From assembly GCF_015694405.1 (NCBI RefSeq), contig NZ_JADQDB010000001.1, positions 248,001 to 312,000 of the forward strand: a stretch of 64,000 nt of DNA. Direction: 5' to 3'. Below the pieces are notes generated by a model. It saw only the letters and a program-made list of their open reading frames with translations. It was not told the origin of the DNA and made no database searches. A program made the position numbers and the translations under genes. This DNA is from Pelagibacterium limicola. Its GTDB lineage: Bacteria; Pseudomonadota; Alphaproteobacteria; Rhizobiales; Devosiaceae. Shown one piece after another: positions 42,844-47,234 of this stretch; position 1 is the stretch's first letter; every line of letters begins with the position of its first letter.

Positions 42844-43794
42844 ATGCACGCCAAGACAATCATCATCGGTTCCGGCCCTGCCGGATACACTGCTGCTATT
42901 TATGCTGCCCGGGCCATGCTCGAGCCGCTCATGATCACCGGCATGCAACCCGGCGGCCAGTTGACCATCACCACCGACGTCGAGAACTATCCCGGCTTCG
43001 CCGATCCCATTCAGGGGCCCTGGCTCATGGATCAGATGCGGGCCCAGGCCGAGCACATGGGGACGCGAATCGAACACGACATGATCGTCGATGTCGATTT
43101 CAACATCCGTCCGTTCCGGCTCACTGCCGATAGCGGCACCGTCTATACCGCCGACACCGTCATCATCGCCACCGGCGCGCAGGCCAAGTGGCTTGGCCTG
43201 CCTTCGGAAGAAAAGTTCAAGGGCTTCGGCGTATCCGCCTGCGCGACCTGCGATGGCTTCTTCTACCGCGAAAAGACCGTGCTGGTCGTCGGTGGCGGCA
43301 ACACGGCGGTCGAGGAAGCCCTCTTCCTCACCAACTTCGCGTCCAAGGTCATCCTCGTCCATCGCCGCGACCAGTTCACGGCCGAAAAAGTCATGCAGCA
43401 GCGCCTGTTCAAGCATCCCAAAATCGAGGTCCGCTGGAACACCGTGCTCGACGAGGTCAAGGGTGACAACATGCCCCCCTCGGTCCGCGCCGCAATCCTG
43501 CGCGACATATCGACGGGCGAAAGCACCGAAATCGAGGTCGACGGGATTTTCATCGCCATCGGTCACGCTCCGGCCACGGAAATCTTCAAGAACAAGCTCG
43601 AAATGAAGCCCGGCGGCTATATCTGGACCGCGCCCGACAGCACCGGAACCTCGGTGCCCGGCGTCTACGCGGCGGGCGACGTCACCGACGACGTCTATCG
43701 TCAGGCGGTCACAGCGGCGGGCATGGGCTGCATGGCCGCCCTTGAGGCCGAGCGCTACCTTGCGGCCCACGAATTGGCCGAAGCCGCCGAATAA
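42844..43794 (+). CDS. trxB: Thioredoxin reductase
   Basis: This 316-residue flavoenzyme transfers electrons from NADPH to thioredoxin. FAD-binding GSGPAGYTAAIYAARA (near 11-26), the redox CATCDG (near 137-142), the NADPH-binding VGGGNTAVEEALFL and the C-terminal GVYAAGDVTDDVYRQAVTAAG are all present. The LysR-type gene starts 57 bases later, so they are likely one unit, as in other Rhizobiales. Confidence 0.97.
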   Translation: MHAKTIIIGSGPAGYTAAIYAARAMLEPLMITGMQPGGQLTITTDVENYPGFADPIQGPWLMDQMRAQAEHMGTRIEHDMIVDVDFNIRPFRLTADSGTVYTADTVIIATGAQAKWLGLPSEEKFKGFGVSACATCDGFFYREKTVLVVGGGNTAVEEALFLTNFASKVILVHRRDQFTAEKVMQQRLFKHPKIEVRWNTVLDEVKGDNMPPSVRAAILRDISTGESTEIEVDGIFIAIGHAPATEIFKNKLEMKPGGYIWTAPDSTGTSVPGVYAAGDVTDDVYRQAVTAAGMGCMAALEAERYLAAHELAEAAE

Positions 43795-43850: not shown

Positions 43851-44744
43851 ATGCTGGACTGGGACAAGCTGCGCATATTTCATGTCGCCGCTGAGTCGGG
43901 GAGCTTCACCCATTCCGCCGAAAAGCTCGGCATGTCGCAGTCCGCCGTCTCGCGCCAGATTTCCGCGCTCGAGGAAGACCTGGGCCTAAAGCTCTTCATC
44001 CGCCACGCCCGCGGGCTGGTGCTTACCGAAGTCGGCGAGCAGCTCTTCCGCACCGCACACCGGATGGCCTGGGAACTGCAATCGGTCCAGGCGCAGATGA
44101 CCGAGAGCCAGGACGTCCCCACCGGCCCGCTGATCGTCACGACGACAGTCGGCTTCGGCTCGACCTGGCTCACAAAGCGCATCCACGAGTTCGTGACGCT
44201 CTATCCCACGATCCAGCTCGAAATAAAGCTCAACGACGCCGAACTAGATCTCGCCATGCGCGAAGCCGACGTCGCCATCCGCCTGCACCGGCCGAACCAG
44301 TCCGAGATGATCCAGCGCAAGCTGTTCACCGTGCACTTTCACATCTATGCCTCCGAGGAATACCTCGCCGAGAACGGTACGCCGCAAACCATCGAGGATC
44401 TCGACGCCCACAAGATCATCACTTTCGGCGAGCCCTCGCCCTCCTATCTGGGGGACGTCAACTTCCTTGAGCGCGTGGGGCGTCCCGATAACAACCCCCG
44501 CCGCACCAATCTCAAGGTCAACGCCATTTACGGGATGATGCAGGCTTGCCGCCAGGGCATCGGCATCGCCATGCTCCCCGATTACATCACCGAGGAGGAA
44601 TCGCGGCTTGTGCGCGTCCTCTCCGATATTTCGCTGCCCGCGTTTGAAACCTATTTCGTCTACCCGCCCGCACTCAAGAACTCCAAGCGCGTGGGTGTCT
44701 TCCGCGATTTCCTCGTCGACAAGGCAAAAGACTGGCACTTCTGA
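43851..44744 (+). CDS. LysR-type regulator of the LsrB/VtlR type
   Basis: This 297-residue regulator opens MLDWDKLRIFHVAAESGSF with the winged HTH EKLGMSQSAVSRQISALEE. Position after trxB and upstream of CCUCC-rich small RNAs matches LsrB (Sinorhizobium) and VtlR (Brucella), whose targets include AbcR-type sRNAs. The C-terminal effector domain is intact. The T-N11-A palindromes before each of the three small RNAs downstream are natural candidate sites for this protein (inference). Confidence 0.9.
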   Translation: MLDWDKLRIFHVAAESGSFTHSAEKLGMSQSAVSRQISALEEDLGLKLFIRHARGLVLTEVGEQLFRTAHRMAWELQSVQAQMTESQDVPTGPLIVTTTVGFGSTWLTKRIHEFVTLYPTIQLEIKLNDAELDLAMREADVAIRLHRPNQSEMIQRKLFTVHFHIYASEEYLAENGTPQTIEDLDAHKIITFGEPSPSYLGDVNFLERVGRPDNNPRRTNLKVNAIYGMMQACRQGIGIAMLPDYITEEESRLVRVLSDISLPAFETYFVYPPALKNSKRVGVFRDFLVDKAKDWHF

Positions 44745-44751
44745 GGTCGCA

Positions 44752-45246
44752 ATGCGCAAAGCCCTGACACTGATCTCCCTCTCCGCCGCGCTCTACGCGG
44801 CCCCTGCAGCCGCACAGTTCGAGGGCGACAGCGTTGAGCAAGCCGCCGCTGTCTTTTGCGAAAGTCACGGCGATCTCGATATCGGGGCGCGCGCGCCCTA
44901 TCTTTCCCCCGCCCTTCTAGAGGCGATCGCCGCCGCCGACGCCGTCAGCCAGCTCTATGTCGACGCCTATCCGGATGAAAAGCCCCCGCTAGGCGATGGC
45001 ATTCCCTGGCAGGCCTGGCCCGATTATGCCGATGCCTGTACGCCGGGCGATCCTCTTTACGATGGAGACGAGGCCACGGTCGCCATCACCTACACCTTCA
45101 TCGAATATCCCGACGCGACCTATTCGGACGAGTTGCGATTCGTGCGCGTTGACGGCGATTGGCTGATCGACGACGTCATCTATGCCGAGAACACGCTGAC
45201 TCTGCGCTCGATCCTGGACAATATTGCCGCAACCCCGCCGGAATAG
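44752..45246 (+). CDS. Secreted hypothetical protein, DUF3828-like
   Basis: This 164-residue protein from ATG 44752 has a signal peptide ending PAAAQFEG (near 21). The C-terminal part (DELRFVRVDGDWLIDDVIY, then LRSILDNI) has the NTF2/DUF3828-like pattern of a lumen-facing binding domain. Two Cys (VFCESHGD and DACTPGDP) may pair. It begins 8 bases after the LysR stop, so it is probably in that operon. No function is known. Confidence 0.8.
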   Translation: MRKALTLISLSAALYAAPAAAQFEGDSVEQAAAVFCESHGDLDIGARAPYLSPALLEAIAAADAVSQLYVDAYPDEKPPLGDGIPWQAWPDYADACTPGDPLYDGDEATVAITYTFIEYPDATYSDELRFVRVDGDWLIDDVIYAENTLTLRSILDNIAATPPE

Positions 45247-45343: not shown

Positions 45344-45356
45344 TGCATAGCAGGCA
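45344..45356. promoter_or_regulatory. T-N11-A box upstream of small RNA A
   Basis: TGCATAGCAGGCA has T at 45344 and A at 45356 with 11 bases between, the classic LysR-type box. Related copies lie before units B and C at matching distances from the promoter. Confidence 0.6.
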
Positions 45357-45369
45357 TTCGATCAGCGAG

Positions 45370-45398
45370 CTTGTCGCTGCCATGCCGAAACACTACCT
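45370..45398 (+). promoter_or_regulatory. Sigma-70 promoter of small RNA A
   Basis: CTTGTC (45370-45375) and CTACCT (45393-45398) are separated by 17 bases, close to the alphaproteobacterial CTTGAC-N17-CTATAT. A start near 45406 would give a transcript of about 112 bases. Confidence 0.6.
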
Positions 45399-45405
45399 GT
45401 CCGCC

Positions 45406-45517
45406 AGACATTACGCGCTTTTCCCCCTCCCTTTGAGCGCGTTTGATGTTCCCTCCTTGCGAGAGGTTCGCCTCTTGCACTCGGGCCCCGCTCTCCCCTC
45501 GAGCGGGGCTTTTTTTT
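45406..45517 (+). ncRNA. AbcR-like (alpha-r15-like) small RNA A
   Basis: The predicted transcript has hairpin 1 at 45413-45442 (ACGCGCT with AGCGCGT), whose loop exposes CCCCCTCCC. An unpaired linker with GTTCCCTCC follows, then hairpin 2 at 45459-45478 (TTCG loop) and the terminator hairpin. Size, position after trxB-LysR and the CUCCC motif in a loop plus linker match AbcR sRNAs, which bind ribosome sites of transporter mRNAs. The 5' end is a promoter-based estimate. Confidence 0.7.
45485..45517 (+). terminator. Intrinsic terminator of small RNA A
   Basis: GCCCCGCTC and GAGCGGGGC pair perfectly (9 bp) around TCCCCTC, followed by eight T residues. Confidence 0.93.
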
Positions 45518-45609
45518 GCGCTCCGCCTCTTCCCACCACACGAATTGGGCGTACCCGAAGGCGGTTAAGCCTCCGCGCACCCTTGCATTTTTATCACACT
45601 TGCACGCAG

Positions 45610-45622
45610 TGCATGGCTGCCA
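45610..45622. promoter_or_regulatory. T-N11-A box upstream of small RNA B
   Basis: TGCATGGCTGCCA lies in the near-perfect inverted repeat CATGGC-T-GCCATG (45612-45624). T at 45610 and A at 45622 define the LysR-type spacing. Confidence 0.65.
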
Positions 45623-45635
45623 TGTGTATTCACTA

Positions 45636-45665
45636 CTTTTCAAGTCGTGATTAAACCGGCATATA
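45636..45665 (+). promoter_or_regulatory. Candidate promoter of small RNA B
   Basis: CTTTTC (45636-45641) and CATATA (45660-45665) are 18 bases apart. The -35 box begins 11 bases after the CATGGC-T-GCCATG repeat, matching the layout at unit A. Confidence 0.45.
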
Positions 45666-45666
45666 G

Positions 45667-45850
45667 GCATGGTCACTGAGACGCGGCGCGCTTTTCCTCC
45701 TCCCTTAGCTCCCCGCGACCATGACAAATGAGCGGCAAAGGTTCCTCCTCCTCCCTCCTGACCCGCTCCACGGCCAATAATCGAACCTCCTCCCTCGATT
45801 TTGGCCGACAGTTCTGGCCCCGCCTTCCTCGAAGGTGGGGCCTCTTTTTT
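45667..45850 (+). ncRNA. CCUCCUCCC-loop small RNA B
   Basis: Three hairpins each present a C/U-rich anti-Shine-Dalgarno loop: hairpin 1 at 45668-45723 (CATGGTC with GACCATG outside), hairpin 2 at 45730-45768 (GAGCGG with CCGCTC) and hairpin 3 at 45772-45806 (GGCCAA/TTGGCC, TCGA/TCGA, loop ACCTCCTCCC). A terminator follows. The loop motif matches the cuckoo/CcsR/alpha-r14 RNAs of alphaproteobacteria. The 5' end is estimated. Confidence 0.7.
45816..45850 (+). terminator. Intrinsic terminator of small RNA B
   Basis: GGCCCCGCCTT pairs with AAGGTGGGGCC (one G-T) around CCTCG, followed by TCTTTTTT. Confidence 0.93.
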
Positions 45851-45885
45851 GCCTAAAATATGGTCAGACTTTGCAATCTGCCTAA

Positions 45886-45898
45886 TGCATGGCTGCTA
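45886..45898. promoter_or_regulatory. T-N11-A box upstream of small RNA C
   Basis: TGCATGGCTGCTA lies in GCATGGC-T-GCTATGC, an inverted repeat with one internal mismatch. T at 45886 and A at 45898 match the boxes of units A and B. Confidence 0.65.
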
Positions 45899-45912
45899 TG
45901 CGCAATTGCGCA

Positions 45913-45941
45913 TTGTACGCAGGAACCATCTCGCTCATATT
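45913..45941 (+). promoter_or_regulatory. Candidate promoter of small RNA C
   Basis: TTGTAC (45913-45918) and CATATT (45936-45941) are 17 bases apart, with the same distance to the palindrome as in units A and B. Confidence 0.5.
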
Positions 45942-45947
45942 CGCATT

Positions 45948-46137
45948 GTCAACCGAGCGACGCGCCCCTCCTCCTCCCTGGGCCCCTCGCTCCTGACACC
46001 CGAACAGGCTTCGTATCCTCCTCCCACGATCCCTGTTCACCCGATCGGCCGTATCCTCCTCCCACGGCCCGATCGCAAACTGTGAGATTAGGGCTCTGCC
46101 CGATCAAGGCTCCGTCTTTTGACGGAGCCTCTTTTTT
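45948..46137 (+). ncRNA. CCUCCUCCC-loop small RNA C
   Basis: It has the same plan as unit B. Hairpin 1 is at 45955-45992 (GAGCGA/TCGCTC, loop around CTCCTCCTCCCT). Hairpins 2 (46002-46038, GAACAGG/CCTGTTC) and 3 (46042-46075) both close an identical 11-base loop ATCCTCCTCCC. A terminator hairpin ends the unit. The matching loops in unrelated stems show that the loop, not the stem, is conserved. The 5' end is a promoter-based estimate. Confidence 0.7.
46108..46137 (+). terminator. Intrinsic terminator of small RNA C
   Basis: GGCTCCGTC and GACGGAGCC pair perfectly (9 bp) around TTTT, followed by TCTTTTTT. Confidence 0.93.
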
Positions 46138-46202: not shown

Positions 46203-47234
46203 ATGAAAGCCCTGGTTCTGGAAAAAATCCGCGAACTCTCGTTGCGCGACATCGCGCTACCCCAGGAAGTCGGCCCCCGCGACGTGAAGATCGCCATCCA
46301 CACTGTGGGCATCTGCGGTTCCGACGTGCATTATTACACCCATGGCCGCATTGGCCCGTTCGTTGTCGAGGAGCCCATGGTCCTCGGCCATGAGGCCGCA
46401 GGCACCGTGGTGGAAACCGGCAGCGCCGTCACCAGCCTCAAGCCCGGTGATCGCGTATGCATGGAGCCGGGCATTCCCAACCCCAATTCACGCGCCTCCC
46501 GGCTCGGGCTCTACAACCTCGATCCCGAGGTCACCTTCTGGGCCACACCGCCCGTTCATGGCTGCCTGACGCCGCACGTCGTCCATCCGGCCGACTATGC
46601 CTATAAGCTCCCCGATGCCGTTTCGTTTGCCGAAGGGGCCATGGTCGAACCCCTCGCGGTCGGCATTCATGCCGCTGCCAAGGCGCGCATCGCGCCGGGC
46701 GAGACCGCCCTCGTCACCGGCGCCGGCCCCATCGGCATTCTCACCGCCCTTGCGGCGCTCGCCGCCGGTTGCGCACGCGTCTTCATTTCCGACTTGCAGC
46801 AGGCAAAGCTCGACATCGCCGGCCGTTATCCCGGCATCACGCCGGTCAACATCGCCACCGGCAACCTGCGCCAGACAATCGCGGAGGCCACCGGCGATTG
46901 GGGCGTGGACGTGGTCTTTGAAGCCAGCGGCAACGCGCGGGCCTTTGAAGGCCTGTTCGACCTTATCCGCCCTGGCGGCGCGGCCGTCCTCGTCGGCATG
47001 CCGGTCTCCCCCGTCCCCTTCGATGTCGTCGCCGCCCAGGCCCGCGAGGTCCGCATCGAAACCGTCTTCCGATACGCCCATGTCTACGACCGCGCGATAG
47101 ACCTCATCGCCTCGGGCAAGATCGATTTGAAACCGCTGATCACCGAGACCTTCGCTTTCGAAGACGCCATAACCGCCTTCGAACGCGCCGCCGAAGGCCG
47201 TCCGGGCGATGTGAAGCTGCAGATCAGGCTTTAG
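46203..47234 (+). CDS. Xylitol/sorbitol-type zinc alcohol dehydrogenase
   Basis: This 343-residue MDR enzyme starts at ATG 46203, with GGAGGAG 5 bases upstream. The catalytic zinc site uses Cys in [11 protein letters not shown] and His-Glu in [28 protein letters not shown] and [11 protein letters not shown] are typical of xylitol dehydrogenases lacking the structural-zinc Cys set. [19 protein letters not shown] binds NAD. It oxidises a polyol to a ketose; the exact polyol is uncertain. It follows the sRNA cluster directly, and its GGAGGAG leader could pair with the sRNA loops. Confidence 0.9.

Follow-up and report, generated by a model that had tools for sequence, protein, structure and literature searches.

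What occupies the interval between a LysR-type regulator gene and the dehydrogenase gene that follows it in Pelagibacterium, and which regulator would control its contents? The locus lies in a 64-kb stretch of a Pelagibacterium genome, family Devosiaceae (G000:C3:248001-312000; hereafter, the window), where the gene order is trxB, lsrB, a gene for a 164-aa protein, an array of small RNA (sRNA) units and a zinc-dependent dehydrogenase gene. The thioredoxin reductase gene trxB (42844..43794, + strand; TIGR01292, 408 bits against a cut-off of 343) is directly 5' of the LysR gene (43851..44744, + strand), whose product carries HTH_1 and LysR_substrate domains and has its nearest named relatives in Pelagibacterium species (89-94% identity). 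The 164-aa protein, encoded at 44752-45246 between lsrB and the array, is without a Pfam match, and the dehydrogenase gene (46203-47234) lies 3' of the array. Because abcR1-abcR2 come after trxB-vtlR in A. tumefaciens (PMC7486931), and abcR1/2 are located between lsrB and an ArsR gene in S. meliloti (PMC8844928), the LysR gene is assigned by synteny as lsrB/vtlR. The DNA-binding part of its product shares 77% identity with LsrB of genome G058 (locus L147), in which a Rfam-confirmed ar15 (AbcR) pair comes directly after lsrB. On balance of the evidence presented below, we consider it likely that the interval encodes three independently transcribed, trans-acting sRNAs that are activated by LsrB and repress mRNAs through anti-Shine-Dalgarno loops.

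Three sRNA units, all on the + strand, were found between lsrB and the dehydrogenase gene, and each begins with a 14-bp box and a -10 element whose first base is exactly 50 bp from that of the box (45394, 45660 and 45936). In unit 1, operator 1 (TGCATAGCAGGCAT; 45344..45357, +) precedes a probable promoter, TTGTCG-N17-TACCTG (45371..45399, +), the -10 of which is weak in Pelagibacterium; the predicted RNA (45406..45517, +) contains a C/U-loop hairpin, a GUUCCCUCC core, a second hairpin and a terminator (45483-45517). In unit 2, operator 2 (TGCATGGCTGCCAT; 45610..45623, +) is followed by the -10 element CATATA (45660..45665, +), with a weak -35, and by an RNA (45672..45850, +) with three hairpins, CCUCCUCCC loops at 45696, 45747 and 45786, and a terminator (45816-45850). 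Unit 3 is composed of operator 3 (TGCATGGCTGCTAT; 45886..45899, +), promoter TTGTAC-N17-CATATT (45913..45941, +), and an RNA (45948..46137, +) with three hairpins, CCUCCUCCC loops at 45970, 46017 and 46055, a small hairpin and a terminator (46107-46137). All three promoter assignments draw on the sequence and on a family-wide promoter profile.

Several features set these units apart from shuffled sequence. The strong terminators end near 45517, 45850 and 46137, and the scan returned six terminator-like sites against 0.9 expected. Six of the eight CCTCCTCCC copies in the window fall at 45696-46063 (shuffles: mean 1.2, maximum 4), and all six CCUCCUCCC copies of units 2 and 3 are in hairpin loops. 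Folding z-scores were -7.2, -6.4 and -7.5 for units 1, 2 and 3, respectively, and no shuffle folded equally well. This anatomy agrees with the earlier note, which had read the DNA after trxB-LysR as three tandem sRNA units, each with an operator-like repeat, a promoter, C/U loops and a strong terminator; the ends that it gave coincide exactly with those of the predicted terminators. Its division of the units into one AbcR-like and two with triple CCUCCUCCC hairpins, as well as its expectation of covariance across relatives, held up in the comparisons described below. A coding role for the units is not supported: only one of 63 unit-1 and 10 of 113 unit-2/3 sequences contain a Shine-Dalgarno-preceded open reading frame of 10 aa or more.

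Unit 1 is positioned directly 3' of trxB-lsrB with an LsrB-type operator, both in the window and at most loci of the family. Its Devosiaceae alignment supports 20 pairs, with 92.5% of cells paired and 74 double-change cells as compared with 29 in shuffles, a count that none of 500 shuffles reached; CUCC falls in hairpin loops in 53% of cases versus 14-15% in shuffled sequences. A covariance model built from Devosiaceae unit 1, with no other family included (R1), scored 96.3 bits on the window unit. It also picked up both members of the G058 ar15 pair, at 29.0 bits (E 1.4e-6) and 24.2 bits (E 4.5e-5), as well as the unit next to lsrB in many other families. Part of the R1 score comes from generic C/U-loop and terminator features; unit 2 receives 33 bits. 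The lsrB-adjacent units of other families have a common core, CAGCTGTTCCCCTCTGGAAGGTG, of which unit 1 retains GTTCCC before diverging. When run on 37 Devosiaceae genomes, among them the window genome, the Rfam ar15 model (RF02345, cut-off 40 bits) gave no hit at E <= 0.01, and the reverse test with a model (R3) built from the AbcR-like units of other families was weak, at 11.2 bits. Since ar15 misses the unit and the reverse model is weak, we name it AbcR-type rather than a proven member: it is probably a diverged AbcR1-type RNA and a positional orthologue of AbcR, and the label is based on position, the GUUCCC core and the purpose-built model R1.

Whether unit 1 might instead be a copy of MmgR (alpha-r8, Rfam suhB) has to be asked, as suhB is its best Rfam match (39.3 bits, cut-off 41). 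The same model, however, also scores above its cut-off on the G058 ar15 (AbcR) pair (58.4 and 53.6 bits) and therefore does not separate MmgR from AbcR, while the position and core of unit 1 match AbcR; we thus consider an MmgR copy unlikely. The suhB hits on that pair lie at G058:C1448:185006-185306.

The alignment of units 2 and 3 supports 23 pairs (93.0% paired), with 190 double-change cells against 60 in shuffles and a covariation score of 0.555 against 0.244; the counted helices exclude the third C/U hairpin, which is misregistered in the alignment. None of 500 shuffles reached 190 double-change cells, and the covariation values collapsed once partners were slid by one column. Exactly three exact CCUCCUCCC copies are present in 100 of the 113 unit-2/3 sequences, and CUCC is in hairpin loops in 81% of cases (14% in shuffles). 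A covariance model for these units (R2) scored 95 bits on unit 2 and 155 bits on unit 3, recovered units 2/3 from almost every Devosiaceae genome, with hardly any matches away from the lsrB locus, and gave 35-36 bits on two strong ar14 members of G058.

At Rfam gathering thresholds, only a tRNA was found in the 64-kb window. The Rfam comparison suggested by the earlier note thus yielded nothing at gathering scores in the interval, and its sub-threshold matches, in addition to that of suhB, were ar14 (RF02344, cut-off 58.8 bits) at unit 3 (33.0 bits) and unit 2 (29.3 bits) and CcsR1 (RF02791, cut-off 65.3) at 29.4 bits. The ar14 model does pass its cut-off at array units of G004 (61.0 bits) and G005 (62.2 bits), which are other Pelagibacterium genomes with the match at the counterpart of unit 2, and of G034 (67.8 bits), which belongs to another genus. 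We assign units 2 and 3 to the alpha-r14 (NfeR1/cuckoo) type; the window copies fall below the ar14 cut-off. A second ar14 match in the window genome, at G000:C9:38942-39056, was rejected: it has no box and is a normal terminator, with CUCC in its loop, that follows a coding region. In a FastTree analysis, Pelagibacterium unit 2 and unit 3 separated with support of 1.0 and 0.96, and Devosia copies formed a separate set (0.92); possession of two copies may therefore be ancient, on what is a short alignment.

We then considered the operator boxes. Operator 1 fits exactly the TGCA-N6-GCAT sequence of PnfeR1, which S. meliloti LsrB binds at -72 to -57 of the nfeR1 promoter and where LsrB is indispensable for transcription (PMC10746234), but it deviates from GCAT-N3-TG-N3-T (AG instead of TG). 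The latter, proposed as the LsrB-binding (VtlR/LsrB) consensus in Brucella and Agrobacterium and located between -61 and -49 in PabcR1 (PMC8844928), is contained without deviation in operators 2 and 3. A TGCA-N6-GCAT operator before a sigma-70 promoter is present in both the window and the family profile when one or two mismatches are allowed. Across 176 units (63 unit-1 and 113 unit-2/3 sequences), nearly constant distances separate the box from an ATTG core at -35 and a TATAT/CATAT element at -10, and the boxes lie about as far from the predicted starts as in the published nfeR1 and abcR1 promoters. The only zero-mismatch box copies in the window are the three of the array. A degenerate form matched six distinct sites in the 3.47-Mb genome, three of them at the array, while a reversed control pattern matched five; the other three sites were rejected as sRNA units, being without a C/U unit 3' and within the chance level of that control.

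As the array boxes match the published LsrB/VtlR operator, the neighboring LysR gene is the probable activator. The RNAs could be real and yet have boxes that serve a regulator other than LsrB, or constitutive promoters with the box as some other element. In A. tumefaciens LsrB, C144 and C273 are conserved redox cysteines (PMC11975290), and these positions are V or I and V, respectively, in all 81 Devosiaceae LsrB proteins; further, LsrB of other families is only about 47-60% identical to that of the window. Nonetheless, the box agrees in both sequence and position with two published LsrB operators, it adjoins lsrB in almost every genome of the family, and the DNA-binding part of LsrB is well kept, all of which makes a non-LsrB function of the boxes improbable. 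Most other families of the order likewise lack these cysteines, and thiol redox sensing by LsrB looks to be restricted to a subset such as the Rhizobiaceae-type proteins. Given the absence of these residues in Devosiaceae LsrB, its signal, and perhaps its mode of activation, may differ.

For the array as a whole, we infer the following sequence of events. LsrB would bind a TGCAT-RGC-WG-SYAT box approximately 50-60 bp 5' of each start site and activate transcription from each unit promoter, in the class-I manner proposed for nfeR1. The three resulting RNAs, one AbcR-type and two alpha-r14/NfeR1-type with three CCUCCUCCC hairpins each, would display C/U-rich anti-Shine-Dalgarno loops that pair with the ribosome-binding sites of many mRNAs, probably those of ABC-transporter and metabolic genes, and this pairing would block translation of the targets. 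The array would then constitute an output battery of LsrB/VtlR through which uptake and metabolic mRNAs are repressed, and the extra units could add dosage, different decay or different pairing outside the loops. The many near-identical loop motifs per RNA, and the several RNAs per locus, would also suit a sponge, in which the units mainly titrate a protein or RNA (e.g., a CcaF1-type RNA-binding protein) rather than pair with mRNAs. However, the C/U loops are the most conserved part of the units and are complementary to the Shine-Dalgarno core, whereas the stems drift; in addition, genetic evidence has confirmed that NfeR1 silences targets via its three motifs (PMC7143759), and the anti-Shine-Dalgarno motifs of AbcR1/2 act on mRNAs (PMC8844928). 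We therefore judge titration to be an improbable main role, and favor mRNA pairing.

Conservation of the array was examined at 80 named loci, chosen for having the closest LsrB proteins and drawn from Devosiaceae or related MAGs by name and identity. A search that required a box, a C/U motif and a terminator to occur in that order returned 200 units in 298 kb 3' of lsrB (box with at most three mismatches), none on the opposite strand of the same 298 kb, and none in a 741-kb control from the trxB-lsrB side. With up to four box mismatches, at least one unit was present at 74 loci: three at 49, four at 10 and five at one; several loci with other unit numbers are truncated at contig ends. Thus, the suggestion in the earlier note that a triple array is unusual did not survive, as this is the commonest state in Devosiaceae and not an oddity of the window genome. 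The first box lies anywhere from 23 to about 3000 bp 3' of lsrB, and the dehydrogenase gene follows the array at only two of 81 loci; we therefore conclude that the array is tied to lsrB and not to its downstream neighbor. The structured RNA on the same strand, ending about 65 bp before the dehydrogenase start codon, invites the proposal that the interval acts in cis as a leader (attenuator or riboswitch-like) of that gene, but this is scarcely credible and was rejected, since the downstream gene changes between loci while the array is retained, and each unit has its own terminator.

Other boxed or C/U-rich elements were observed near Devosiaceae lsrB. After the array in many Devosia genomes there is a fourth, different boxed unit of approximately 95 nt, in which a CUCCAAGGUC core is conserved and the terminator carries GCCCAUCCCCUCGGGC (L060:5829-5925, L065:7200-7292, L094:6594-6686 and others), which was not found in the 64-kb window. 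At L079, about 890-2520 bp 3' of lsrB, regular CCTCC motif pairs with a period near 180 bp possibly reflect a repeat-protein gene.

Sixty loci from other families of the order were also surveyed. There, trxB adjoins lsrB nearly always, and many loci have a single C/U-loop unit, usually boxed, after lsrB; two units follow it in G058, and three in two further families, at L164 (G100) and L179 (G110). As many of these loci show one unit, the Devosiaceae array is an enlarged, mixed version of an old lsrB-sRNA arrangement. The three tandem C/U-loop units after trxB-lsrB at L164 and L179 are near-identical, which suggests independent amplification. Separately, L187 (G050:C16:81700-82700) has a DUF1127-like small open reading frame and then two nearly identical three-hairpin C/U RNAs, a layout that resembles CcaF1-CcsR. 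A tentative scenario, which we consider possible but somewhat less probable than its negation, is that AbcR and alpha-r14/NfeR1 arose from one box-promoter-sRNA unit that was duplicated at lsrB, with both retained in Devosiaceae and alpha-r14 relocated with its operator in Rhizobiaceae; Devosiaceae LsrB, without redox cysteines, would drive the battery on another signal.

The earlier note had also supposed that the array may be undescribed. This stands for the family, in which the lsrB array appears not to have been described before: a literature search outside the main cuckoo-RNA and alpha-r survey papers yielded no publication that links Devosia to AbcR or sRNAs, and nothing relevant to Pelagibacterium. 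It does not stand for the components, as AbcR, alpha-r14 and LsrB control were already known; single cuckoo RNAs in a Pelagibacterium genome may have been mentioned earlier in the survey literature, and alpha-r14 has been reported from Rhizobiaceae, Brucellaceae and Phyllobacteriaceae (PMC7143759). AbcR1 and NfeR1, both under LsrB/VtlR, rank with the most thoroughly studied metabolic sRNAs in rhizobia and their relatives. The array extends AbcR-type and alpha-r14 RNAs to a family mostly missed by current Rfam models, and its mixed composition offers a compact natural system for shared origin, dosage and division of labor between sibling sRNAs.

Among known systems, AbcR1/AbcR2 (alpha-r15, RF02345) are alike in being tandem sRNAs directly 3' of trxB-lsrB/vtlR, with an LsrB-type operator and promoter, C/U loops and a strong terminator, and the Devosiaceae unit-1 model matches the ar15 pair beside lsrB. 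They differ in that the ar15 model misses unit 1 and that Devosiaceae have three to five units rather than two; moreover, all Devosiaceae array units are boxed, whereas abcR2 of S. meliloti is RpoH1-dependent and not LsrB-dependent (PMC8844928). NfeR1/alpha-r14 (RF02344) and the cuckoo RNAs share with units 2 and 3 a CCUCCUCCC motif in each hairpin, variable stems and an LsrB-type operator 5', and the ar14 model passes its cut-off at the lsrB locus of related genomes. The window units, below that cut-off, each have three C/U hairpins plus a separate terminator hairpin, and the two of them lie inside the lsrB locus, whereas NfeR1 of S. meliloti is away from it. MmgR (alpha-r8, RF00519) is similar to unit 1 in size, C/U motif and terminator, but unit 1 scores under the suhB cut-off, and that model is without power to split AbcR from MmgR. 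The Rhodobacter CcaF1-CcsR1-4 locus resembles the array in having several tandem CCUCCUCCC RNAs. CcsR1-4 have two hairpins each and are processed from one transcript behind a DUF1127 gene, whereas the window units, at an LsrB locus, have separate predicted promoters and terminators and score below the CcsR1 cut-off. Finally, in rhizobia LsrB activates AbcR1, which adjoins lsrB, and NfeR1, which is located elsewhere, whereas in Devosiaceae both types stand beside lsrB, all of them boxed.
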